From the IMG/VR virus record IMGVR_UViG_3300025141_014188, positions 1 to 30,752 of that record: a stretch of DNA of 30,752 bases; one strand, written 5' to 3'. The position numbers and the translations under genes were made by a program. The notes under the pieces are model-generated. The model was not told where the DNA came from and ran no database searches. It worked only from the letters and a program-made list of their open reading frames with translations. This DNA comes from a virus. The first letter of the stretch is position 1, and each line of letters begins with the position of its first letter. This document shows positions 1 to 21,308 of the stretch, one piece after another.

Positions 1-42
1 GCTTCCTATAAATCCGCAACCACCTGTAACTAAAACTCTCAT
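1..42 (-). CDS. NAD-dependent epimerase/dehydratase, N-terminal fragment (runs off the window)
   Basis: Only the first 14 codons are present: an ATG at 42 opens MRVLVTGGCGFIGS and continues past the window edge. This is the first beta strand and glycine-rich loop (GGxGFIGS) of the extended SDR family of NAD-dependent nucleotide-sugar epimerases and dehydratases (GalE/RmlB type). The start lies one base beyond the stop of the preceding dCMP hydroxymethylase-like gene, so the two are probably translationally coupled. By context it would interconvert a nucleotide sugar for the neighbouring glycosyltransferase. The family is well supported by the loop, but the substrate cannot be told from 14 residues. 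Confidence 0.75.
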   Translation of the reverse strand, partial: MRVLVTGGCGFIGS

Positions 43-43
43 C

Positions 44-1024
44 CTATCCCCTTACCGGTCGCAACTGCTCTGAAACACCGTACATCATTGCTCTCGCTAC
101 ACTCTTAAACCCTAATTTTCCTGCCCTGTGCGCTGCCAAGATGTAAGCCCAATCAATCCAATATTCATCTAAATGTTTAGTGGTTGCTAACGCAGCGTTG
201 ATTTCGGCTACATCGGAACACTCACGTATCAGCGCCTCAAATGCGAATAGCTCCGATGTTGCCTGTGTTTGTGGCATTGGGTTCATTTGCCCACGTGTAT
301 GACTCATTAACGTGCTGGTTGCAGATGAGTGTTTATCAAGGATCTCATCTAACATCTCAAAATGACGTTCATATACATGCAATGAGTTTGAAACATGGAT
401 ATACGTACCCAACTCTACCCCAAGCTCATTAGCCATTAGTTCTTGTAAGAATGTAAAAGCAGGAACATCATATGAAATTCCTAAAACTAAATCACTTGAA
501 CGCATGGTGGCAACTTGGTGGAGCTTATTATCTCTAATAAAAAACTGTAGGGCGATTGTGCAGGGTACATCTTTTGCTCCAATAATACTATCGTCTGGAG
601 TCCTAATATGAATCATAGCACGCCGAGAGTCCGGATCATTGCGCAACTCATTAACAACATATTCCCATTGGTTTAAGTTTCCTGATGATATACGAGGGTG
701 CGGACCAAAGATCCTTGCGCCATATGCGCTGTTGGCAGTTGTACCATCATCACTAATGTCTTTCCAGAATGGAGCATAATTGGAAATCCATTTAGTCTCG
801 TTGTTTCCGCTTAAGTACCAAAGTGTTTCAGCAATCATATATTGAATCTTAAACTTTCTAGCTGGAACATATGGAATTCTGTGTCGAGGATTTGTTATTT
901 CAAATCGAATCCCAAGCTTTTCCTTCACCTTCATGCCTCGAGGCGAAGAAATATAGTCATAGTCATCACGAATCTCTTCAGCCAAATAAAGATACGCGCT
1001 AGTAAAATCCTTAAACGTTCTCAT
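44..1024 (-). CDS. Thymidylate synthase-fold pyrimidine (hydroxy)methylase, probably dCMP hydroxymethylase
   Basis: The 326-residue protein has the thymidylate synthase/dCMP hydroxymethylase fold, which adds a one-carbon unit from methylene-tetrahydrofolate to C5 of a pyrimidine nucleotide. Visible motifs are the DSRR phosphate-binding arginines (132-135), the catalytic Cys155 in VPCT, MRSSDLVLG (174-182) and a C-terminal SLHVYERH. In thymidylate synthases an Asn follows the LG motif and reads uracil. Here that position is Asp186, exactly 31 residues after the catalytic Cys, matching the Cys148/Asp179 pair of T4 gp42. I therefore favour dCMP as substrate and hydroxymethylation as reaction; simple dCMP methylation is possible. 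The start at 1024 (ATG after GGGAG) is preferred over a TTG 12 bases upstream. It sits between a nucleotide kinase and an epimerase, suggesting hypermodified cytosine synthesis. Confidence 0.85.
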   Translation of the reverse strand: MRTFKDFTSAYLYLAEEIRDDYDYISSPRGMKVKEKLGIRFEITNPRHRIPYVPARKFKIQYMIAETLWYLSGNNETKWISNYAPFWKDISDDGTTANSAYGARIFGPHPRISSGNLNQWEYVVNELRNDPDSRRAMIHIRTPDDSIIGAKDVPCTIALQFFIRDNKLHQVATMRSSDLVLGISYDVPAFTFLQELMANELGVELGTYIHVSNSLHVYERHFEMLDEILDKHSSATSTLMSHTRGQMNPMPQTQATSELFAFEALIRECSDVAEINAALATTKHLDEYWIDWAYILAAHRAGKLGFKSVARAMMYGVSEQLRPVRG

Positions 1025-1054
1025 TGTTTCTCCCAAAATGAGTATATGCTTTTT

Positions 1055-1597
1055 TCATATTGCGACCTGTTGATTATCATCTAAAAAATCCAAAATTTCA
1101 TCGATTTCTCGATCTAGATTTTCATCATCAACTGAAAGGAAGTGGCACTTGCAGTTCGTCCATTTGGCAAATTCTCGATATTCACTATCTATTTCCTTTA
1201 CTCTCTTTAGATTGAGTTTTTCTGGAAATAGGTCATCCACTTTTAGATTTTTTCGTGTACAAATTATGATATGTGTATTGTTAAGAGCGTGCCAATTATC
1301 TAGAGAACGAACACCTTCTGTAAAACTCTCTCTATTGAATACATTACTATACACCCATTCCGAAGGCCAGGCTCGATCAAAAATCACCTTACTACCTGAT
1401 TGATCAATAAAGTCCAATAGCATTGGGTCACCAAATCTCACGATTCCATCAAATGCTTTTTCCGGATTATCATCAAAAACTTTCCACTCAACGCGATTCT
1501 TAAAGTAAACCATTCCAAGGCGAGATGCTAGCTCTTTTGCAATCTCGGTTTTTCCACACTGGTCCGTTCCCTCAATTACGATATGTTTAATGCTCAT
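1055..1597 (-). CDS. P-loop deoxynucleoside monophosphate kinase (thymidylate kinase-like)
   Basis: The 180-residue protein begins with a Walker A loop, GTDQCGKT at residues 10-17, in the IEGTDxxGKT context typical of thymidylate kinases. A DRAWPSE segment near residue 90 resembles the DRxxxS substrate-side motif of that family. The C-terminus is Asp/Glu-rich and has no recognisable extra domain. The start at 1597 follows AAGGG at good spacing and lies just after the stop of the glycosyltransferase gene; a longer frame beginning at 1612 would overlap that gene and lacks its own ribosome site. Next to a dCMP hydroxymethylase-like gene, the likely job is phosphorylating the modified dCMP, the role of T4 gp1, although the protein looks TMP-kinase-like. 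Plain dTMP kinase activity is the main alternative. Confidence 0.75.
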   Translation of the reverse strand: MSIKHIVIEGTDQCGKTEIAKELASRLGMVYFKNRVEWKVFDDNPEKAFDGIVRFGDPMLLDFIDQSGSKVIFDRAWPSEWVYSNVFNRESFTEGVRSLDNWHALNNTHIIICTRKNLKVDDLFPEKLNLKRVKEIDSEYREFAKWTNCKCHFLSVDDENLDREIDEILDFLDDNQQVAI

Positions 1598-1598
1598 C

Positions 1599-2627
1599 TT
1601 ACTGCCCTTCAATAAAGTTAGCTACCCCTGTAACCGTAAAGTCAGCAAAGGACATTAATCCTTCAAGCTGTTGCTTAACGACATTTTCACGTTGGCTTTT
1701 AGAAAGCTTACTTAGATAGCTTACCTTATCAACCACATCATCAGATGTATGCACAATCCAATCATCACCCAAACAATGAAGTACTTCATGCTCAACAGGA
1801 ACTAAGGCCGGGACCCCACATTGGAGAGCCTCAAATACCCGAGGTGATACATAACCGGTCTTATAATAGTCATCCTTTGCGATATGTGTGGTCGCATTAA
1901 ATCCATTCAAGATTTGCATTGACTCATAAAATCCCCTTCTCAATCCAAATGATAATGTTGAATAACGTGAGATTATCTTTGAAGGCTCTTCTCGTTCCGG
2001 AGACTTTTGAAGCCAGTTTCCCCACATGATTGTCTGCACACCCTTATCCCTTAGTTGCTGTGATGGAATTCCATAATATTTCTGTATACTCTCTTCTCGC
2101 TCGTATCGATTTCCTACATACCCGTAACAATATGAATAATCAGGTGCCTCGAACAGAGGTTTAAAATCAGACCAGATCGGCATCCATGAGCGTTTCTTTG
2201 TAAGAATCTTAGGGCGAAAAGAGGGATCACAAATCTCCATATGAGGCCAGCGGTCTTCATCTTCTTGACGTACTTTATGATCCGTATCTAATACAATTAC
2301 ACGAGTTCCATCATTAGTATAGTGATCTAAAAGTTCAACCTGTCTATCCCAATCAGGTTCAAACTTTTTCTCTCCAAAGTTTTTGTATGTGGGCCAGCGC
2401 CACTCCACAAAGAGTACATCCAAATCCGGAAAATAACCATCAGCATATGTTGAGTTTGGATATGACAAAGCCTCGCGCTTTTGCTGCATACAGAAAACTG
2501 TATGACCTCGTCTTTGAAGTTCATCTACCAGCAATGGCCTGGAAAGTCTTAATCCATCTGGGGTTTGGGCAAAGACGGCGTCTTCATACTTTTCCAGAAA
2601 ACCCCAAAAACTATATCCAATCTTCAT
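1599..2627 (-). CDS. GT-B type glycosyltransferase
   Basis: The 342-residue protein looks like a two-domain GT-B glycosyltransferase. The N-terminal half has alternating strands and helices (MKIGYSFWGF, DLDVLFVEW, TRVIVLDTDH). The C-terminal half carries the donor-binding signature GYVSPRVFEALQCGVPALVP near residues 260-280, as in the Glyco_trans_1 / CgeB-like families. It shows no obvious relation to the T4 alpha- or beta-glucosyltransferases. Its start overlaps the SDR stop by one base (TAATG), and its stop precedes the kinase start by one base. In this operon a DNA glycosyltransferase acting on 5-hydroxymethylcytosine is the most coherent role. Modification of host surface glycans remains possible. 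Family assignment is good; the acceptor is inferred. Confidence 0.7.
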   Translation of the reverse strand: MKIGYSFWGFLEKYEDAVFAQTPDGLRLSRPLLVDELQRRGHTVFCMQQKREALSYPNSTYADGYFPDLDVLFVEWRWPTYKNFGEKKFEPDWDRQVELLDHYTNDGTRVIVLDTDHKVRQEDEDRWPHMEICDPSFRPKILTKKRSWMPIWSDFKPLFEAPDYSYCYGYVGNRYEREESIQKYYGIPSQQLRDKGVQTIMWGNWLQKSPEREEPSKIISRYSTLSFGLRRGFYESMQILNGFNATTHIAKDDYYKTGYVSPRVFEALQCGVPALVPVEHEVLHCLGDDWIVHTSDDVVDKVSYLSKLSKSQRENVVKQQLEGLMSFADFTVTGVANFIEGQ

Positions 2628-3322
2628 TATCCTCTCATTCCTCGGTGTAATGATATAGCGGTTTCTCGCATACCCTCATTTCGAATAAATGAACATAAAA
2701 TCTCGCATACATCATCGACCCTTATCAAAGAACCATTCATCGAGTTCATATGTTTTGCAACATAATCAGGTGTCATACCCATATGAACAGGCGAGCCCTC
2801 AATTAATCCAGGTACGACTATATTCGCTCGTAGGCTGGCGAAGTTATTATTAATGCATTTAACCAATCCTGATATTGCAGTTTTTGAACAACAGTAGGCA
2901 GGATCATATGAACCTTTCATTACGCTTACTGAAGATACAAAGCTCACGCTAGCACCGTCAATGCAATGTGGTGCCAATGCCCTAACAGCAACTATCGGTC
3001 CAAATAAATTAACAGCTGACATCTTCATAAAATGGCTATATTCAATGTCTTGTATGCCAATGGACGGATTGATTCCTTGAAGAAACACGATTCCACCGAC
3101 CGGTCTATTCATTGTACGGAGGCGCTCAACGATCACATCCATTTGTGTACCGATATTGTCTAATGACATGTCAACAGACAAGGGGGGGTCAACTAATGTG
3201 TCATGATCTTTTAAACTATTCGGGCCAAAAACTGGTAAGAAATCATATTCACCAGCATGTTTTTTCATGAAAGTAGTCGCAACATAGCCTGATGCGCCAA
3301 AGATTACAATTAGTTTTTTCAT
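2627..3322 (-). CDS. Short-chain dehydrogenase/reductase (SDR)
   Basis: The 231-residue protein is a classical-length SDR. A nucleotide-binding loop GASGYVA lies at residues 9-15. The catalytic triad is visible: serine in FVSSVSV near 130, Tyr143 and Lys147 in YCCSK. A typical segment follows (SLRANIVVPGLIEG), where the dinucleotide nicotinamide side is bound. The start has AAGGAG five bases upstream. The gene lies 14 bases after the Gfo/Idh-type gene and overlaps the glycosyltransferase start by one base, so the three form one operon. A role in reducing or oxidising an intermediate sugar is inferred from the neighbours; the sequence alone does not give the substrate. Confidence 0.8.
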   Translation of the reverse strand: MKKLIVIFGASGYVATTFMKKHAGEYDFLPVFGPNSLKDHDTLVDPPLSVDMSLDNIGTQMDVIVERLRTMNRPVGGIVFLQGINPSIGIQDIEYSHFMKMSAVNLFGPIVAVRALAPHCIDGASVSFVSSVSVMKGSYDPAYCCSKTAISGLVKCINNNFASLRANIVVPGLIEGSPVHMGMTPDYVAKHMNSMNGSLIRVDDVCEILCSFIRNEGMRETAISLHRGMRG

Positions 3323-3336
3323 ATCGACTCCTTAAA

Positions 3337-4206
3337 TTATAGGTTCTCTTCGAGCAAGCTCGTGATTTTTAATGTTAGTTTTTCTTGCATATTAACAATC
3401 TCTACAGGATTTTCAATAAAATACTTAATTGAATTATGCAAAGGGGAGCCACCATGTGTACCCGTCATCTCTGCACCCTCTGTTTCCAGCGTTCCTTTAG
3501 CATCATCCCAGTATACTACCTGATCCCCAAATTGAAACCAGCAGTCCCGAACCTTTTGATTAAGCTCCCATGACGTATTAATACTGGCAGTGCCGGTCTG
3601 TAGTCCATCCTGATTATAAATTCCAACTACACCTATTGACGTACCTCGAACCTGCTCTGGAGATTCAGTGGTTGTTTCTCTACTAAAGAACTCGCGCTTC
3701 AGGTGGTGAGTATCGCCGAGGAGATAGAGCAAGATTGAAATATCATGTGACAATAAATCCCACCTGGCACTCACATCATTTCGCACAGGTCCTAAATTCA
3801 TTCGATTCATAAAAGCTGATTGGAGTGGTGGAAGACTACCCTCCTCTATTTTTTCTTTAAGATATTTAATCGCTGGATTAAAACAAAAAACCCAATCAAC
3901 GTGTAGTTTTAATTCCCTCTTATTCGCTAGTTTGTATAACTCGGACACCTGTTCATTTTTTAAAACCAAGGGTTTTTCACAAAAGACATGCTTGTTTTCT
4001 AGGAGACATTCCTTTACAATTTCATAATGAGTCAATGCAGGTGTTGCAATAACTACATGCGTTGAGCGAACTAGTTTCTTAATTCGATCATCATCACTAT
4101 TGAAGCGCGGGTCCCACGTTTCAAGACTAAAATCTGGATAAAGCTCCACAATATTCTTTTGTAAAATTTGGCCCCAGTATCCAGTTCCTAACAATAAAAT
4201 ATTCAT
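3337..4206 (-). CDS. Gfo/Idh/MocA family oxidoreductase
   Basis: The 289-residue protein has an N-terminal Rossmann fold with GTGYWG at residues 7-12, the conserved strand THVVIATPALTH near 50-60, and the family motif EKP at residues 77-79 (FCEKPLV), whose lysine sits at the active site. The C-terminal part is the alpha/beta domain of this family and is somewhat short. Members oxidise or reduce sugars and nucleotide sugars with NAD(P). It is the first gene of the sugar and base-modification cassette, preceded by an 88-base gap that holds a candidate promoter and a GAGG ribosome site seven bases before the ATG. The specific sugar is not predictable. Confidence 0.8.
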   Translation of the reverse strand: MNILLLGTGYWGQILQKNIVELYPDFSLETWDPRFNSDDDRIKKLVRSTHVVIATPALTHYEIVKECLLENKHVFCEKPLVLKNEQVSELYKLANKRELKLHVDWVFCFNPAIKYLKEKIEEGSLPPLQSAFMNRMNLGPVRNDVSARWDLLSHDISILLYLLGDTHHLKREFFSRETTTESPEQVRGTSIGVVGIYNQDGLQTGTASINTSWELNQKVRDCWFQFGDQVVYWDDAKGTLETEGAEMTGTHGGSPLHNSIKYFIENPVEIVNMQEKLTLKITSLLEENL

Positions 4207-4232
4207 CTCTTTGCCTCATTTTGTATAATATT

Positions 4233-4261
4233 ATAATAACATGCCCTATGCGGAATTACAA
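4233..4261 (-). promoter_or_regulatory. Candidate promoter for the modification cassette
   Basis: In the gap between the polymerase and the cassette, the minus strand reads TTGTAA (4261-4256), 17 bases, then TATTAT (4238-4233). A TG one base before the -10 gives an extended -10 element. It lies about 27 bases before the first ATG of the cassette. The match to a sigma70-type promoter is fair but could be chance in an AT-rich gap. Confidence 0.45.
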
Positions 4262-4294
4262 TTTTTATCCCGACTTCGGTGATCAAATTATCAA

Positions 4295-7200
4295 TTATCT
4301 TAAAATCTTAACCCGTTGTTGTCTAGTTGCATAACCGAAATCACTTTTATCAATTTCAGCCACACAGATAGAGTATTTTTCAATTGCAAGTTGCTTATCC
4401 CAATTCCACATAAACATTCTTTCATTTACGCCAGAGTCGCCGGCGACATTTAATAGCAGATAAGGTTTCCCACGCTTTGTTTTCTTAGGTGTCATCCCAG
4501 TTACGATAAACCAATAAATGTCCTTACCGTTATACTCATCAATTGGAACTAAGTTCATTTCAGAGAATCGACTAAGAAGTGATTCGGATACCAAGTTTGA
4601 TGCATTACAGCTACCAAGATACTCTACAAGCTGTTCAGCCATCTCAATCCTAGACCATTCCCCAATGTCTAAAGATTCTAGAAGATGTTGCTTGAACATC
4701 TTACGACCGATCTCCGGATCACGCTTTGTACGCTTTTTAATGTCAGAATTATTATTAATAACAACTTCTTCCATATGCTTATAAGATTCGAATGTGCAAT
4801 CTGGGCCTACAATATTCATGGAGTCGAATGCCCGAATGCGGATTAGCGATTGCATCGTGCGCTTATTGAACTTAGAGTGTTTCCACTTTCCATCCTTATC
4901 CCAAAGTAAATCATCCACTGAATGGTAGGGGCGATTCTCAACAATCTCGTCGACTGCAGCTTCACCAATGCCCTTGCAGCTTAAAAAGCTTGGCATAAAT
5001 CTCTTACCATCAAGAATGGTCCATGACCTTTCAGCATGATTAATGTCGATGGGTACGGTCTTGTAGCCTAGTTTCCTAATTTCATTAAAAGCCTTAGTAC
5101 GCTTTTTGGGATTACTAGACATTGCCTCGAGATAAGCACAGAGCCATTCTTCCTCGTAATATGTCATAAGCCATGCACAATAATACGAGTCAATTGCGTA
5201 TGAGACAGCATGTGACTTATTAAATCCATAGCCGGAAAAGAATAGAATCTTCGCATATAACTCAGACGCTAGTTCTTTGGGCAATCCATTATTAACACAG
5301 CCTTCAACAAATGCATTCTCCAATGCTTGTGCTTGTGCTTTCATCGCATCAGCCTTTGATGCAGATCGCTTCATGATTGTACGACGAATCTTATCACAAT
5401 CTTCTTGTGGGAAACCTGCAACAACGTTACACAGTTCCATGACTTGTTCCTGAAAGATGATTGCGCCGAAGGTGGGCTCAAGTACTTGCTTGATCAAGGG
5501 ATGTTTATAATCAATATTCGCTGGGTCTTCCTTTGCTCCTAAATAAATCTTATGAACGTCAGCCGAGAGAGGTCCTGGTCGATAGATGGAAGTTAGGGTT
5601 GCAATACCAACGATGCTATTTGGTTTACCCTTCATGAAGAATTGCTGCGCACCTTTCTGAGTTGCCTGAAAGATTCCTGCCCACTTGCCTGCATGATAAA
5701 CATTTTCATAAACATGTTGGTCATCAAAGTCGATCACCTTAGGATCAAGGTGATTATCAAACCATTCCTTGACTTGTGCAAAAGAAGGATCTTTAATTCC
5801 CTCCTTGCGTTGCAAAATCAAACTAATACAACGCTCCATGATCCTAAGTGTTTCGAGCCCAAGAAGATCAAACTTAATCCACCCAAGTTCCTCAAGATGC
5901 TTATAGTGCATTCCCTCGACCCATGGTGTCTGTACTTCGCCCCTTGCAGTAATAAGAGGCATACGCTTCTCAATATCTTCAGAGACAATCACACCACCGG
6001 CGTGCCGTCCGAGGCTTTTATTTTGCTTAAATAAAATCTCGATAGGTTCAGCAACTTCTGGGTATTTTTCAATAAAATCCCTAAACGTCTTACTATGCTT
6101 TATTGCATCTTCGTATAATAGAACAAATAAGTTTTTATCAGTTCCCTTTTTAAAGACCGCCCGCTTGACCTCTCGCTCCACCGGTGCCAAAGCCTTATTA
6201 ACTTCATCAAATGGAACACCATAAAAGCGAGAAATATCTTTTACGAGGCTCTTTAGTTTAAATGTATTATAGTTTGAGATTGGAACAACATTATGATCGC
6301 CAAATTGTTCTTTCATTAAATCAATTAATAAATCGCGATCACCGATATCTGAATCAATGTCAGGTGCTCCTTGGCGGTGGACGCTTAGAAACCGCTCAAA
6401 CAAAAGTCCATACTCGATAGGATCAACGTTTGTAATCCCCAATACATAAGCGACCAAAGAACCAGCTGCGGAGCCACGACCGGGCCCAATAAACATATGG
6501 TCCCTAGCAATATCCATGATTGCTTTCATCGTTAAAAAATACCGACTAAAGTTCTTTGCTTGGATTACACCAAGTTCAATCTTTAATCTTTCTACATACT
6601 CATGATTTGTATGAAGATCCTTCTCAACTAGTCCTGCTTTGCACAACTCCAACAATGCATCATCTTCGCCCTTTCCTTCTGGAATTACATATGAAGGGAG
6701 CTTCATTGCAGTATCCGGCTGAATATCACCAATCACATTATGGGCAATATCATGTGTACGCTCAATCGCTGCGAATATGATTTCATCATTATAGAAATCA
6801 TATGCAGAAGTTGTTTCATGATATGTTTCCCACACCTGTTGCGCATTCTTTGGGTACAATTCACACTTAAGATCATCTTTAGTTTGTGGCAACTTTGATG
6901 GATCAAACTCACGATAGTTTAACCACCCAAGCTTCTTATAGAGCTCTCGCTCTTTCCAATGATCCGGGTGTGCATAATGACTATCACACGTGATGATAAG
7001 CTGAGATGTTAGGTCATTGCGTCTAGCAAATTCAAGCAATGCACGATTAACAAGATGCTGGGCATTTAGTTTATTAAACTGAAGTTCGAGGTATACATTC
7101 TTCTTACCTAGCGAATCCGCTAGCATTTGATAGCCGTTGGCAACGGACACCAGGACCTTCTCAAGTACCTGCTCATTGTCAAGAAGCTCAGGCTTTAGAT

Positions 7201-7897
7201 CATCAAACTCGACCCCTTGAAAGTGAGAAAATATTTCATAAGCCAGTGGTCCACCGATACATGCGGTCGAGATGATTAGATGATCGCCCTCAGCCGCTTC
7301 ACGTAGCATCTTATAGTCCACACGTGGGAAGCGATAAAATCCATCGATATAACCTTTAGAAACTAAACCAAAGAGTCTTACGAGACCCTCAGAGGTCTTT
7401 GGGAGAACTACTAAGTGATGGCGGCGTTTGATAGGATCATAAAACTTACTTGACTTTGAAGCATCTTCATCTTCAATTGTTAAACCGGCTTCGCCAGAAT
7501 TGCTATCAGCAGAGGCATTATCTTCATCAGTACCAGCCAGAAGAGACGTTGATAACTCCTTACGTTGTGCCCGAAGTACCTGCAAGGCTTCTTCATCGCC
7601 TCTTTTTACTGCCCTTTTAATTTCATAATCTAAACGCCAAACTTCTAGATCTGGATGTACATACATCTCACATCCAGGAATAAGTTTGAAGTCTACACCG
7701 GAGGCCTTAAGCTTCTCAGCATGTAGATACGCATGACAAAATGCATTCATATGACCGTGGTCAGTTAATGCCCATGCATCCATACCATTTTCACGTACAA
7801 AATCGATATGTTCTTGCGGATATCCTAACCCATCAAAGGTTGAAAATCCTGAGTGCGCATGTAGACCCACAAATCGTTTTGGTACATTCTCTTCCAT
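4295..7897 (-). CDS. dnaE: DNA polymerase III alpha subunit (family C)
   Basis: The 1200-residue protein is a complete DnaE-type replicative polymerase. The N-terminal PHP domain keeps apparent metal ligands (HAH at 13-15, TDHGH at 45-49, CDSHYAH near 304-310), so PHP exonuclease activity is plausible. The catalytic core shows GPGRGSAAGS at 471-480, PDIDSD at 512-517 and the third aspartate at 677 in KFDLLGL. It is followed by helix-hairpin-helix and OB-like C-terminal regions. An acidic, low-complexity insertion sits at about 121-150 inside the PHP domain. The ATG has AGGAGG five bases upstream, and a strong promoter lies just before it. A second, family-A polymerase occurs at 20097-21308, so the division of labour is unclear. 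Family assignment is certain. Confidence 0.96.
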   Translation of the reverse strand: MEENVPKRFVGLHAHSGFSTFDGLGYPQEHIDFVRENGMDAWALTDHGHMNAFCHAYLHAEKLKASGVDFKLIPGCEMYVHPDLEVWRLDYEIKRAVKRGDEEALQVLRAQRKELSTSLLAGTDEDNASADSNSGEAGLTIEDEDASKSSKFYDPIKRRHHLVVLPKTSEGLVRLFGLVSKGYIDGFYRFPRVDYKMLREAAEGDHLIISTACIGGPLAYEIFSHFQGVEFDDLKPELLDNEQVLEKVLVSVANGYQMLADSLGKKNVYLELQFNKLNAQHLVNRALLEFARRNDLTSQLIITCDSHYAHPDHWKERELYKKLGWLNYREFDPSKLPQTKDDLKCELYPKNAQQVWETYHETTSAYDFYNDEIIFAAIERTHDIAHNVIGDIQPDTAMKLPSYVIPEGKGEDDALLELCKAGLVEKDLHTNHEYVERLKIELGVIQAKNFSRYFLTMKAIMDIARDHMFIGPGRGSAAGSLVAYVLGITNVDPIEYGLLFERFLSVHRQGAPDIDSDIGDRDLLIDLMKEQFGDHNVVPISNYNTFKLKSLVKDISRFYGVPFDEVNKALAPVEREVKRAVFKKGTDKNLFVLLYEDAIKHSKTFRDFIEKYPEVAEPIEILFKQNKSLGRHAGGVIVSEDIEKRMPLITARGEVQTPWVEGMHYKHLEELGWIKFDLLGLETLRIMERCISLILQRKEGIKDPSFAQVKEWFDNHLDPKVIDFDDQHVYENVYHAGKWAGIFQATQKGAQQFFMKGKPNSIVGIATLTSIYRPGPLSADVHKIYLGAKEDPANIDYKHPLIKQVLEPTFGAIIFQEQVMELCNVVAGFPQEDCDKIRRTIMKRSASKADAMKAQAQALENAFVEGCVNNGLPKELASELYAKILFFSGYGFNKSHAVSYAIDSYYCAWLMTYYEEEWLCAYLEAMSSNPKKRTKAFNEIRKLGYKTVPIDINHAERSWTILDGKRFMPSFLSCKGIGEAAVDEIVENRPYHSVDDLLWDKDGKWKHSKFNKRTMQSLIRIRAFDSMNIVGPDCTFESYKHMEEVVINNNSDIKKRTKRDPEIGRKMFKQHLLESLDIGEWSRIEMAEQLVEYLGSCNASNLVSESLLSRFSEMNLVPIDEYNGKDIYWFIVTGMTPKKTKRGKPYLLLNVAGDSGVNERMFMWNWDKQLAIEKYSICVAEIDKSDFGYATRQQRVKILR

Positions 7898-7914: not shown

Positions 7915-7943
7915 ATTATATCAACTTTTTGTACTATTTTCAA
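7915..7943 (-). promoter_or_regulatory. Strong sigma70-like promoter for dnaE
   Basis: The minus strand reads TTGAAA (7943-7938), a 17-base spacer, then a consensus TATAAT (7920-7915). The -35 and most of the spacer lie inside the 3' end of the dUTPase-like gene. Initiation about seven bases downstream would leave a leader of roughly a dozen bases containing AGGAGG before the dnaE ATG at 7897. This is the best host-type promoter I found in the window. Confidence 0.65.
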
Positions 7944-8304
7944 GTCTTTGTAGGATCTTTTTATGCTTTTTTAAGTAGGAAGAGTACAGTTCTGTTTCAT
8001 CGATTCCAAGCATAATCAAGACTGCGAAGAAGTAATTTAATGCATCAACCATTTCTTCCAAAAACTCTTCTCTATCAAAATCAAAGTCGTTTAAGTCTGA
8101 GCGGTGTGTCTTCCAGTTCTTTAAATGCTGTAAGGCTTCAAACAACTCTTCAACACCTCGCAGTGTTGTTTCACGAAGTGCCTGTTGGTTCTTACGTTTC
8201 TTTACATCAACTGGCCATTCCGGGTAAGACTTTTCATCTTTTTTACGAATTCGACTCATGAAATCTTTTCGTAGTTCGAACATATCTTTTAGCATATCAT
8301 TCAT
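7921..8304 (-). CDS. All-alpha dUTPase/dCTPase-like (MazG superfamily) nucleotide pyrophosphatase
   Basis: The 127-residue, all-helical protein carries the metal-binding pattern of the dimeric dUTPase/MazG superfamily: GVEELFEAL followed about 30 residues later by EEFLEEMVDALNYFFA. These enzymes hydrolyse dNTPs to dNMP and pyrophosphate; T4 gp56 (dCTPase-dUTPase) belongs to this all-alpha group. In a phage with a dCMP hydroxymethylase-like enzyme, removing dCTP and supplying dCMP would be the expected role, but dUTP or broad dNTP specificity cannot be excluded. The ATG overlaps by eight bases the stop of an upstream small frame, suggesting coupling. The 3' end contains the dnaE promoter. Confidence 0.75.
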   Translation of the reverse strand: MNDMLKDMFELRKDFMSRIRKKDEKSYPEWPVDVKKRKNQQALRETTLRGVEELFEALQHLKNWKTHRSDLNDFDFDREEFLEEMVDALNYFFAVLIMLGIDETELYSSYLKKHKKILQRLENSTKS

Positions 8305-9249: not shown

Positions 9250-9678
9250 TTAAAATAATCTCGGAAGCAAGGTCAATGCAGTGGCATTAAAGCAAATATG
9301 TGCAACAACACCATGCCAAATATTCCCGTGATTGTATCTTAAATAACTCAAATATACAGAGAAGGGTAGTAAAAAAAACGCTGCTTCCCATGAATGTAAA
9401 AAAGAAAATATCAATGCGACTAAAACTGCTGCGACCTTATCATTTCCAAAACGAGAAATTAACTTCCACAAACCTCCACGAAAAACGACTTCTTCAATGA
9501 AGGGAACGGCAATGATTAATAAACAATAAAAAGCCGTAAGTAGCCAGGTCGGTGATGACTGTAGAAAATCCGTTACTATTGCATCAGTCTCTGACTCAGA
9601 ACCAAATGACGTTTGAGCTAGCGATGAAATTACATTTAAAATCACACCAGCGATTCCAACTTTCAAATATTTCATCAT
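9250..9678 (-). CDS. CPBP-family intramembrane metalloprotease
   Basis: The 142-residue membrane protein carries all three motifs of the CPBP (CAAX protease and bacteriocin-processing, formerly Abi) family: EEVVFR at 62-67, FSFLH with His95, and HxxxN at 127-131. Hydrophobic segments lie at about 5-20, 45-62, 83-95, 100-113 and 122-138. Family members are intramembrane endoproteases and, in bacteria, often give immunity to bacteriocins. It is shorter than usual but keeps the catalytic core. Its ATG overlaps the stop of the coiled-coil gene, placing it last in a group that begins with the amidase. Role in the phage is unknown: cleaving a host membrane protein, lysis control or exclusion are all possible. 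Confidence 0.85.
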   Translation of the reverse strand: MMKYLKVGIAGVILNVISSLAQTSFGSESETDAIVTDFLQSSPTWLLTAFYCLLIIAVPFIEEVVFRGGLWKLISRFGNDKVAAVLVALIFSFLHSWEAAFFLLPFSVYLSYLRYNHGNIWHGVVAHICFNATALTLLPRLF

Positions 9679-10025
9679 GAATTTCCATGTGAGCCGGTCA
9701 TTGTATCTACAAGCTCTTGCAACTTATCACGCTCTTCTCTTAAAAACTGAACCTCAACCCTTAGTGCAGCAGTTTCTTCTGTGAGCTTCGTGAACTTTTC
9801 CATAAGTTCATCTCGCCCTTTTCGCTCATCTTCCAATTTGCTCTCTAACACTGCGACCCTTTCACGAAGATCATCACGATAAATGTGTTGTTCACCACGT
9901 TGCTTTTCTTCCAGGTTTGTTCTAATCTCAAGCTTTTTTTGATAGTATTGCCATGCGCCGGCGCCACCTAATGTACCGATTACTGCAATCAATAGTGTTA
10001 TAATATCACTTTGTTCCACGGTCAC
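9675..10025 (-). CDS. Membrane-anchored coiled-coil protein, i-spanin-like candidate
   Basis: The protein is up to 116 residues. One hydrophobic segment (IITLLIAVIGTLGGAGAWQYY, about 8-29) is followed by a long charged coiled coil to near the C-terminus (VAVLESKLEDERKGRDELME and on). A single N-terminal anchor with a periplasmic coiled coil is the plan of inner-membrane spanins, and the gene follows an amidase and a multi-TM protein. No matching outer-membrane lipoprotein is visible, so the label is tentative. The start is GTG at 10025, or GTG at 10019, which has better spacing to AAAGGG. It overlaps the upstream gene by 20 bases and the CPBP gene by 4. Confidence 0.65.
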   Translation of the reverse strand: MTVEQSDIITLLIAVIGTLGGAGAWQYYQKKLEIRTNLEEKQRGEQHIYRDDLRERVAVLESKLEDERKGRDELMEKFTKLTEETAALRVEVQFLREERDKLQELVDTMTGSHGNS

Positions 10026-17413: not shown

Positions 17414-17797
17414 TTAATAACCTGCTTCGGCCTCTATTTGCTCTTCTGTCTTTCGCCTCACTGATTCCAACACAATCTTAGCGGGAATCATTCCAGGAGG
17501 AAAGTACCCAGTGTATTGGTTGTGCTCCTTATCAAGTGTGCAAAAATAAAATGTGTCATTATCAGCTAGATTAATGTCACATCCCCAGCATGTATCATAG
17601 TGGCCAATGAAGATCTCTTCTGCATCCGTGTAAAATGTTTCTCCACATGTCTCATTTAAGATATTCTGGAGTAGTTGTCTTTCATTAAAATAAAGTCCAT
17701 ACTCCATAATGCCAAGTAGAATTGACATCATAACAGGTAAAAGCAGTGCAAACTCAATAGCAGCACCACCTCGTCTATTTTTCTTAAGCTTTTCCAT
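17414..17797 (-). CDS. TadE/TadG-like pseudopilin
   Basis: The 127-residue protein opens with MEKLKKNRRGG followed by AAIEFALLLPVMMSILLGIM, the TadE-family signature of a basic leader, a prepilin-type cleavage site and a hydrophobic helix. If cut after Gly10, Glu15 is at position +5 of the mature protein, as in pilins. The remaining 90 residues are soluble and carry four cysteines (ETCGE, TCWGC, YFCTL) that could form disulfides in the periplasm. TadE proteins are minor pseudopilins of Tad/Flp pili and need the host peptidase TadV. The ATG at 17797 is chosen over a TTG at 17809 that lies in a hairpin; neither has a clear ribosome site. It sits between SSB and RecA genes, with no other pilus gene in view. 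Confidence 0.75.
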   Translation of the reverse strand: MEKLKKNRRGGAAIEFALLLPVMMSILLGIMEYGLYFNERQLLQNILNETCGETFYTDAEEIFIGHYDTCWGCDINLADNDTFYFCTLDKEHNQYTGYFPPGMIPAKIVLESVRRKTEEQIEAEAGY

Positions 17798-17808
17798 TAC
17801 ACGAACCA

Positions 17809-17835
17809 ATGCGAGGAGGGAACCCCTCCTCGCAT
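17809..17835 (-). terminator. Strong hairpin between ssb and tadE-like genes
   Basis: A perfect 12-bp inverted repeat (ATGCGAGGAGGG and its complement) with a 3-base loop lies 17 bases after the SSB stop. There is no U-tract after it (TGGTTCGTG follows), so it is not a textbook intrinsic terminator. It may protect the 3' end of the SSB message or limit read-through and translation of the TadE-like gene, whose start is 12 bases beyond. Confidence 0.6.
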
Positions 17836-19603: not shown

Positions 19604-20119
19604 TTACACGGCTTCTTTCTTTTTACCAGCAGGTTTTACCGGTCCGGACCAGCTTGGTTTTCCACCCTTTGTTGGATAAACCAATACATAACCGCCAACA
19701 TGTTGAGCGCGGAGGTCATCGTTTGTTCGAAGTGCACCAACCGCGATTGCATTAATCAATAAAATCCTCATGTACTGTGTACCGTTTTTAGGATCCAACT
19801 GTTTGAAAGCAATAAGGGTACCCTTTTTTCCCTCATTGTCTTGAACCATTGTTGTATCGCCGTATGCGATCTGAATTGTGTCATGACGACGTGCGGCATT
19901 AATTAAATCTCGAACTGCCTCAGCAGCCGATTCACTGGTAAAGCTAGACTTAATCCCTAGTCTTTTAAAGACCTCTTTTGGATCTGCTAACTTTAGATCC
20001 TTTCTAGGTGCGCCACGAAAGCTCGAAACAATCCTATTAGGAATTTTTGGGACATTTAATTCTTTATCTTCTCGTTCGAAAAGCATATCATAAACTTTAT
20101 TGTCGGTTACATTTAACAC
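19604..20119 (-). CDS. Hypothetical protein, unknown function
   Basis: The 171-residue protein is not one I recognise. The N-terminal half is mixed polar and helical (AAEAVRDLINAARRHDTIQIAYG). The middle has beta-like strands (KGTLIAFKQL, YMRILLINAIAVGAL), and the C-terminus is basic (KPAGKKKEAV). The start is a GTG with GGAG seven bases upstream, overlapping the 3' end of the PolA-like gene by 23 bases. Position in the replication operon suggests a DNA-related accessory role, but no motif supports one. Confidence 0.75.
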   Translation of the reverse strand: MLNVTDNKVYDMLFEREDKELNVPKIPNRIVSSFRGAPRKDLKLADPKEVFKRLGIKSSFTSESAAEAVRDLINAARRHDTIQIAYGDTTMVQDNEGKKGTLIAFKQLDPKNGTQYMRILLINAIAVGALRTNDDLRAQHVGGYVLVYPTKGGKPSWSGPVKPAGKKKEAV

Positions 20120-21308
20120 TGATTTTCTCCACAGTAACAGGAAAGTCTATCACCTTATCATTGAAGTTGATTTTAATTCCATCATTAAATATCTTCTTGG
20201 CATTGCTTGAAACCTCATTAGATACATCACATATGATCTCATCATGAATTAAAAACAATGGACGGCATTCACCAGCAGCCTTAAGTCTTGATATTACTTC
20301 TAGAAATCCTAGTGTTGCGGTATCAACAGCAGTGCTTTGAATGAACGCATTGAAGACATTTTCACGACTACTGGGGAAGATAGGCCGACCAAAGTAATTT
20401 CTAAGCTCATCCTCAGGAATAGACAAAAGTCGATTTGTCGTTTCATCAACTGAAAATAATGATCGTAGCTTCTTTTTTTGTGATACTGAAACATTGCCAT
20501 ATCCACTTCTAGCAGAGTGTAACGACATTCCATAAATAATTGAAAGTGTTAAGATTTTTACCTTTGATCTGCCCAGGTCTCCATTAAAAACTTCGGCATC
20601 TATCCACTCGTATAAATCACCCTCAGGTGTAATGCCATTTAGTGCTAGCGCTACCCGAGGCTCCAAGCTAGCATAGTCAATAGAGATTATTTCACCGGCA
20701 TCTCCATATGCTGATCCAATAATTGATCGATTCTCTTTTCTTAATGTTAAAATTCTAGGACCTGAAACTATCTTCATTCTGCCAGTGGATGTTTCAACAC
20801 CATCATACTGTACATTGTTAGCAAACCCTTGATCATCTGGCTGGAAAGAACGTAGATTTGAGATCTGGGTGGTATCGGACTCAATGTTTAGACAATGACT
20901 ATACTTTCTTTTATCAATCCATGCTCTCTCAAGCCCGTGAAGTAGCTCCAACCTTTTTACCAACGTAGAACTATACCCGGATCCCTCGAGTGCATCTACG
21001 ACATGTTGTGTACACTCGACAACCTTCTTAACTGTGCCTTGATACGTGACCGGATCTAATACGTGTTGCCAATGTACATCACTCAAACCCATACCGATCT
21101 TATTAAAAAACTTTGCATGAGGTAAAGATGCAAAAGTCGGAACATCAACCCGAAATAGCTTTGCCACATAATCTAATGATGTGAGCTTATTTGTATCGCC
21201 CAAACATAAGATATCGTCAGGTTTGGAGTGAACCCACGAAAAATGATCATTATCAAAAACTAGATGATCGCTGGTGCCGAGCGCTGATCCTAGGATACAA
21301 AACTTCAT
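20097..21308 (-). CDS. Short family-A DNA polymerase
   Basis: The 403-residue protein carries the family-A polymerase palm and fingers: motif A with Asp211 (IDYASLEPR), motif B with Arg247, Lys251 and Tyr259-Gly260, and motif C His355-Asp356-Glu357. TGR and NAFIQSTAVDTA match the conserved thumb and QGxxAD regions. It is far shorter than a Klenow-type polymerase; the first 200 residues show no 3'-5' exonuclease motifs, and no 5' nuclease is fused. It may do gap filling, repair or lagging-strand work beside the DnaE-type enzyme in this phage. All catalytic residues are present, so it is probably active. No clear ribosome site precedes the ATG. Confidence 0.9.
   Translation of the reverse strand: MKFCILGSALGTSDHLVFDNDHFSWVHSKPDDILCLGDTNKLTSLDYVAKLFRVDVPTFASLPHAKFFNKIGMGLSDVHWQHVLDPVTYQGTVKKVVECTQHVVDALEGSGYSSTLVKRLELLHGLERAWIDKRKYSHCLNIESDTTQISNLRSFQPDDQGFANNVQYDGVETSTGRMKIVSGPRILTLRKENRSIIGSAYGDAGEIISIDYASLEPRVALALNGITPEGDLYEWIDAEVFNGDLGRSKVKILTLSIIYGMSLHSARSGYGNVSVSQKKKLRSLFSVDETTNRLLSIPEDELRNYFGRPIFPSSRENVFNAFIQSTAVDTATLGFLEVISRLKAAGECRPLFLIHDEIICDVSNEVSSNAKKIFNDGIKINFNDKVIDFPVTVEKISVKCNRQ

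Follow-up and report, generated by a model that had tools for sequence, protein, structure and literature searches.

Glycosylated cytosine protects phage DNA from restriction and from some CRISPR systems, and the known examples use few sugars. The closest described systems are the glucosylation of 5-hydroxymethylcytosine (5hmC) in phage T4, the pentose modifications of RB69-type phages and Thanatos, the 5hmC carbamoyltransferase known from MetaGPA, and the CMP 5-hydroxymethylase MilA of the mildiomycin pathway. Within the thymidylate synthase (TS) superfamily, Asp at position 179 selects cytosine, and Ser169 and Arg123 select deoxyribose, MilA having Ala and Lys there (PMC5175136), and hydroxymethylation is marked by Ser94, Tyr96, and Asp145 (PMC6400193). 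MetaGPA tied Asp177 to phage DNA selected for modified cytosine, and the Asn-to-Asp change at 177, taken alone, sets the cytosine preference only (PMC8670742). The window analyzed here is the entire IMG/VR record IMGVR_UViG_3300025141_014188 (30,752 bases); it comprises an operon, cut at base 1, which very likely encodes a glycosylated-5hmC pathway. That this operon makes glycosylated 5hmC DNA with a sugar edited by two oxidoreductases is regarded as probable.

The operon and the proposed pathway

All the named cassette genes are located on the minus strand, packed as tightly and in the same places as in a preliminary description of this DNA, which had assigned them to one operon. Read from position 8304 to 1, they code for a nucleoside triphosphate (NTP) pyrophosphohydrolase, the DNA polymerase III alpha subunit (PolIII alpha), a Gfo/Idh/MocA oxidoreductase, a short-chain dehydrogenase/reductase (SDR), a glycosyltransferase (GT), a kinase, the TS-family enzyme, and the start of an epimerase. 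The GT and SDR genes overlap by one base, and a single nucleotide separates the kinase start from the GT end, as well as the TS stop from the epimerase start. The same gene set was found repeatedly in tens of separate contigs, and this recurrence is well beyond chance.

In the proposed pathway, a gp56-type enzyme would convert dCTP to dCMP, which the TS-like enzyme would turn into 5-hydroxymethyl-dCMP; the kinase would begin the conversion of the latter toward the triphosphate, to be incorporated by the phage polymerase, and the GT would then move a sugar from a nucleotide sugar onto the 5-hydroxymethyl group in the DNA. A sugar that the host does not supply would come from the Gfo/Idh/MocA dehydrogenase and the SDR, acting as an oxidise-then-reduce pair, perhaps together with the GalE-like epimerase. 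The cytosine, deoxyribose, and hydroxymethyl specificity, the relations to gp56 and to the T4 DNA beta-glucosyltransferase (beta-GT), and the co-occurrence of the genes are well supported by sequence; the kinase substrate, DNA as the acceptor, and the sugar editing are inferred.

The predicted cytosine hydroxymethylase

The gene at 44-1024 (minus strand) codes for a protein of the TS superfamily (PF00303, E 8e-35), whose closest solved structure in PDB is MilA (E 3e-48). In a residue alignment comprising T4 gp42, E. coli TS, SPO1 gp29, and over 100 homologues from viruses, it shares the gp42 residue at each of the 13 diagnostic positions examined in the active site (ESYRRDCTSDDHY), E. coli TS differing at four of them, in agreement with its earlier designation as a dCMP hydroxymethylase-like enzyme. 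The catalytic Cys, Glu60, His216, and Tyr218 of the superfamily are present, and so are the cytosine-marking Asp at the N177/D179 position (D186 in the window enzyme), the equivalents of Ser169 and Arg123, indicative of deoxyribose and not ribose, and those of Ser94, Tyr96, and Asp145, the hydroxymethylation signature. A dCMP 5-hydroxymethylase with 5-hydroxymethyl-dCMP as its predicted product is thus well supported by the residues. A plain thymidylate synthase was rejected for this gene on the same cytosine- and hydroxymethyl-type residues, as found in gp42, and they also weaken the alternative raised in the preliminary description, i.e., a plain TS within a surface-glycan operon. Moreover, a separate ThyX is encoded in 12 related loci, making the TS-like enzyme dispensable for dTMP there.

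Two variants of the TS-like protein were noticed among the relatives. Locus L004 encodes a second, short one (9291-9989) with changed catalytic positions (E60 to S, H216 to S, and Y218 to W), and many relatives (e.g., L244, 7063-7968) encode a protein of ca. 302 amino acids, with an N-terminal kinase and a C-terminal stretch judged by eye to be degenerate TS-like.

The dCTPase-like protein and the kinase

The gene at 7921-8304 (minus strand), previously described as dUTPase/dCTPase-like, codes for an all-alpha NTP pyrophosphohydrolase (dUTPase_2/MazG-type match) with the EExxE...EExxD pattern. Its PDB matches are dUTPase and dCTP pyrophosphatase, and its family profile matches the T4 gp56 dCTPase with an E-value of 1e-11, aligning to the gp56 C-terminus, so that a relationship to gp56-type dCTPases is well supported by the profile comparison.

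The kinase gene (1055-1597, minus strand) encodes a P-loop nucleotide kinase with a weak AAA_28 match and a match to the thymidylate kinase PHROG (E 4e-8). The family profile matches phage YorR and a Mycoplasma deoxynucleoside kinase, and the predicted fold (pLDDT 88.5) resembles thymidylate/deoxynucleoside kinases, which bears out the TMP-kinase-like type proposed earlier. A homologue of T4 gp1 was rejected, the profile likeness being confined to the P-loop (21 columns, E 0.036). The protein, proposed to be a 5-hydroxymethyl-dCMP kinase, could fill the role of gp1 on this putative substrate without being a recognisable gp1 homologue.

The glycosyltransferase

The GT-B glycosyltransferase (1599-2627, minus strand) as a single sequence gives a weak match to PF13524 (28.8 bits, cut-off 25) as its sole Pfam match. 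With a profile of 24 family members, the T4 DNA beta-GT (1bgt) was the sole significant PDB sequence (E 2e-8), and the hhalign comparison of the family with beta-GT gave an E-value of 1e-5. The invariant R263 and E266 of the GT align with R269 and E272 of beta-GT, and R177 with R195. Structure prediction and search, the check proposed in the preliminary description, gave a model with a pLDDT of 92.8 and, as the top TM-score among the E-value-ranked structures listed, 0.68 to T4 beta-GT (1qkj); the TM-score to the T4 alpha-glucosyltransferase (alpha-GT) structure was 0.65. A distant homology to the T4 DNA beta-glucosyltransferase is well supported by these comparisons, and DNA containing 5hmC is proposed as the acceptor. 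Membership of the T4 alpha-GT family was rejected (profile comparison E 0.19, PF11440 unmatched), and so was a relationship to RB69 ORF003c (E 0.13). The earlier view that the GT shows no visible kinship with either of the two T4 enzymes therefore holds for alpha-GT, to which no relation is detectable by sequence, and fails for beta-GT. No match among annotated phages came from tblastn with three members of the GT family, and a PHROG search with the GT assigned no PHROG.

Genome context

In a survey anchored on the GT, a TS-like gene was found nearby in 39 of 45 viral loci, and four of the six loci without it were incomplete. The usual order is the polymerase, then GT, kinase, TS, and epimerase genes variously arranged, followed by a DHH phosphoesterase and a dCMP deaminase; PolIII alpha lies upstream of most cassettes. 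A second survey, comprising 80 loci, was anchored on the downstream DHH gene and was thus independent of both TS and GT. The GT and the TS-like gene occurred together in 25 loci and the TS-like gene without this GT in 15, the GT was never found without the TS-like gene, and 40 loci had neither (Fisher p 2e-10); collapsing of 95% duplicates gave 15, 14, 0, and 37 loci, respectively (p 3e-7), kinship being ignored in both tests. This constant company of the hydroxymethylase in the DHH-anchored loci, together with the relation to beta-GT, favours the glycosylation of 5hmC put forward in the preliminary description.

The slot is occupied in other DHH-anchored loci by a Pfam DNA alpha-glucosyltransferase (AGT, above cut-off), a C5-cytosine methylase, the helical domain of a 5-hydroxymethyldeoxyuridine (5-hmdU) DNA kinase, and a myo-inositol-1-phosphate synthase. 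A TobZ/NodU-like carbamoyltransferase lies beside the same TS-like enzyme in L002 and L004, replacing the GT in the latter; an enzyme of this kind was shown to make 5-carbamoyloxymethylcytosine (PMC8670742). In L003, L005, and L054 the place of the GT is taken by a different, Pfam-less protein (GT5). The GT/TS linkage and the presence of the AGT, C5-methylase, 5-hmdU kinase domain, and the like in the same slot argue strongly that it serves DNA modification and not surface glycan. Genes for DNA modification are swapped at this site, among them UDP-galactopyranose mutase and carbamoyltransferase modules.

Eleven non-redundant GTs with a UDP-galactopyranose mutase gene nearby form one fully supported clade, and a mutase-like gene is also found at two distant GT loci. 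The L006 mutase passes the TIGR00031 equivalog cut-off (373.7 bits against 303.75), which suggests galactofuranose as the donor in the mutase-linked clade; a UDP-galactopyranose mutase is absent from the window. Literature searches on galactofuranose in phage DNA yielded only a mention that Agrobacterium phage Atu_ph04 has a UDP-galactopyranose mutase, for which no connection with DNA was drawn.

Other contents of the slot and similar loci were also recorded. L240 (3034-7996) comprises a myo-inositol-1-phosphate synthase, an FkbM-like methyltransferase (judged by eye), a 5-hmdU DNA kinase-like domain, and a C5-cytosine methylase, possibly for an inositol-linked DNA modification. In L221 (6456-9387) the TS-like gene is followed by two Pfam-less proteins and a weak match to a pyridoxal phosphate-dependent enzyme, a set recalling by eye those of thymine hypermodification. 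Bacillus phage G (L133, 1230-6966) has a dCMP-type TS-like protein, gp319, encoded near the annotated alpha-glucosyltransferase gp313 and the CMP/dCMP deaminase gp317.

Bacterial relatives

On actinobacterial chromosomes, tens of loci pair a GT homologue with an adjacent TS-like gene, and many of them also have a carbamoyltransferase and an epimerase. The conserved cluster (L137-L215, e.g., L145, 5291-16342) comprises a TS-like hydroxymethylase, a NodU/TobZ-like carbamoyltransferase, the GT homologue, a methyltransferase, a histidine phosphatase, an epimerase, an AdoHcyase-like NAD protein, and a cytidylyltransferase. At the position of Ser169 the enzyme of L145, the sole actinobacterial one examined, differs from the phage enzymes in having Gly, which points to a ribonucleotide as the basis of the cluster's product. 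The Ser form of the TS-like enzyme occurs in L136, a metagenome-assembled genome of Rickettsiales, together with a GT, a kinase, and a carbamoyltransferase.

The sugar-type oxidoreductases and the epimerase

The Gfo/Idh/MocA sugar-type oxidoreductase (3337-4206, minus strand; PF01408, E 1.6e-13) keeps the EKP motif, and the classical SDR (2627-3322, minus strand; PF00106, E 4e-12) keeps YxxxK; they are proposed to be the dehydrogenase and the reductase, respectively, of a sugar-editing pair. The PDB matches of the former are sugar and inositol dehydrogenases, and its nearest NCBIfam model is UDP-GlcNAc 3-dehydrogenase, below cut-off. In L268, an SDR 40% identical to that of the window, which surfaced only through the DHH-anchored survey and not through the SDR scan, is encoded in a GT/TS/kinase/epimerase operon beside an unrelated FAD-dependent oxidoreductase. 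The gene for the latter (4137-5225), suggested by its position to be the Gfo counterpart, was rejected as such; the arrangement would fit an editing in two steps, oxidation and then reduction, in which the first enzyme is exchangeable. The Gfo protein and the SDR probably re-edit the sugar, and an edited, possibly new sugar on 5hmC is plausible; the earlier proposal of a nucleotide sugar of the phage's own making, and hence of a new modification, is unproven.

The epimerase/dehydratase start reported earlier is real, though cut by the contig end: its 14 codons (42-1, minus strand; MRVLVTGGCGFIGS) repeat exactly the beginning of complete GalE-like NAD-dependent epimerases found at the same place in relatives. 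In L003-L005 the full-length genes lie directly downstream of the TS-like gene (Pfam Epimerase, TIGR01179 best). An epimerase is present in 72 of the 80 DHH-anchored loci, and as a near-constant gene of the group it was dropped as a strict member of the glycosylation pathway; its role may be broader.

Weighing of the alternatives

Several observations weigh against the proposed pathway. In the fold search the GT matches many GT-B enzymes, which score similarly to beta-GT and several of which have better E-values, and the profile match to beta-GT falls mainly in the C-terminal, nucleotide-sugar-binding half. The GT family also extends beyond a DNA context, as the actinobacterial clusters with a ribo-type TS-like enzyme indicate, and the close-match scans of viral contigs with the Gfo protein and the SDR gave no relatives. 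Finally, the epimerase is present in 34 loci that lack both this GT and this TS-like enzyme, and hence is not simply assignable to the pathway.

The GT might use host UDP-glucose on 5hmC, as in plain T4-like glucosylation, with the Gfo/Idh/MocA protein and the SDR serving otherwise. The GT has a UDP-glucose enzyme as a relative, the sugar-type oxidoreductases are rare among related loci, and some of these (e.g., L021, L038, and L045) carry the GT, kinase, TS, and epimerase genes with no extra sugar enzyme; still, this is rather unlikely, since in the window the Gfo and SDR genes lie directly upstream of the GT gene in one operon, overlapping or nearly so, and other relatives pair the same GT family with a UDP-galactopyranose mutase, the GT clades tracking the mutase. 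Cytosine methylation to 5-methyl-dCMP of the Xp12 type, in place of hydroxymethylation, would agree with the limited effect of the change at 177 (PMC8670742), and is very improbable given the S94 and D145 equivalents of the published signature and the hydroxyl acceptor required by both the GT and the L004 carbamoyltransferase. A surface-glycan or lipopolysaccharide operon enclosing an ordinary thymidylate synthase carries very little probability as well: polysaccharide loci commonly contain members of the epimerase, SDR, Gfo, and GT families, and jumbo cyanophages carry such clusters (PMC7824862), but the TS-like residues are of the cytosine/hydroxymethyl type, the best profile match of the GT is a DNA glucosyltransferase, and the slot, lying between the polymerase and nucleotide-metabolism genes, is home to other DNA-modification enzymes. 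A free nucleotide or small molecule, along the lines of MilA-type pathways to nucleoside antibiotics and of the actinobacterial clusters, is hardly probable as the product. MilA is indeed the closest PDB relative of the TS-like protein, and GT homologues accompany TS-like and carbamoyltransferase genes in the actinobacterial loci; nevertheless, the phage enzyme has the Ser and Arg of the dCMP type, against Ala and Lys in MilA and Gly at the Ser position in the actinobacterial enzyme, and in phages the cassette is linked to a polymerase, a gp56-like dCTPase, and a dCMP deaminase.

A more far-reaching version of the glycosylated-5hmC pathway is put forward tentatively and is itself somewhat doubtful: the Gfo protein and the SDR would make a 5hmC sugar new to DNA, the relatives with a GT and a mutase would attach galactofuranose, and the slot between the polymerase and DHH genes would rotate many cytosine modifications in one phage group. 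If the glycosylated-5hmC pathway is as proposed, an uncultured phage group exchanges entire modification modules at one site and retains the hydroxymethylase; several new sugars in DNA, furanose forms among them, would be expected, and the GT family would provide relatives of T4 beta-GT that use different donors. The range of DNA sugars and the causes of their turnover would then be open to direct test.

Other features of the window

PolIII alpha (4295-7897, minus strand; PF07733, PF17657, and PF02811) serves as the context anchor upstream of the cassette. Besides it, the window encodes a short DNA polymerase I-like domain (20097-21308, minus strand; PHROG DNA polymerase). Two further genes on the minus strand, both judged by eye and with no PHROG match, code for a small TadE/pseudopilin-like protein (17414-17809; RRGGAAIEFALLLPVMMSILLGIMEYG) and a CPBP-type intramembrane protease-like protein (9250-9678; FIEEVVFRGGLW).

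Comparison with known systems

The closest solved structure to the window TS-like protein belongs to the mildiomycin pathway, but the ribose-selecting Ala176 and Lys133 of MilA are replaced by Ser and Arg, predicting dCMP as the substrate. With the 5hmC carbamoyltransferase system (MetaGPA, PMC8670742) the link lies in the TobZ/NodU-like enzyme of L002 and L004, in place of which the window has a GT. The pentose modification of RB69-type phages and Thanatos likewise combines a dCMP hydroxymethylase-like enzyme with phage-encoded sugar genes (PMC6024577, PMC12838424); however, the window GT is not detectably related to RB69 ORF003c, and no nucleotidyltransferase like TH1_063 or ORF53_52c is seen within the window fragment. 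The comparison with RB69 arabinose on 5hmC, made in the preliminary description, is dated, as later work, insofar as it is cited in PMC13216743, has the RB69-type arabinosylation on hydroxy-cytosine.

In its working the system resembles that of T4, with which it has in common a gp56-type dCTPase, a hydroxymethylase with diagnostic residues identical to those of gp42, a GT distantly related to beta-GT, and the location of the cassette beside a phage DNA polymerase gene, similarly to T4 gene 42 near gene 43. It differs in that the kinase is not homologous to gp1, the polymerase is PolIII alpha, the relation of the GT is only distant, and Gfo/Idh/MocA, SDR, and epimerase genes are added. The window operon is thus a T4-type DNA disguise in a new variant, distinguished by its kinase, polymerase, sugar genes, and the degree of GT relation.

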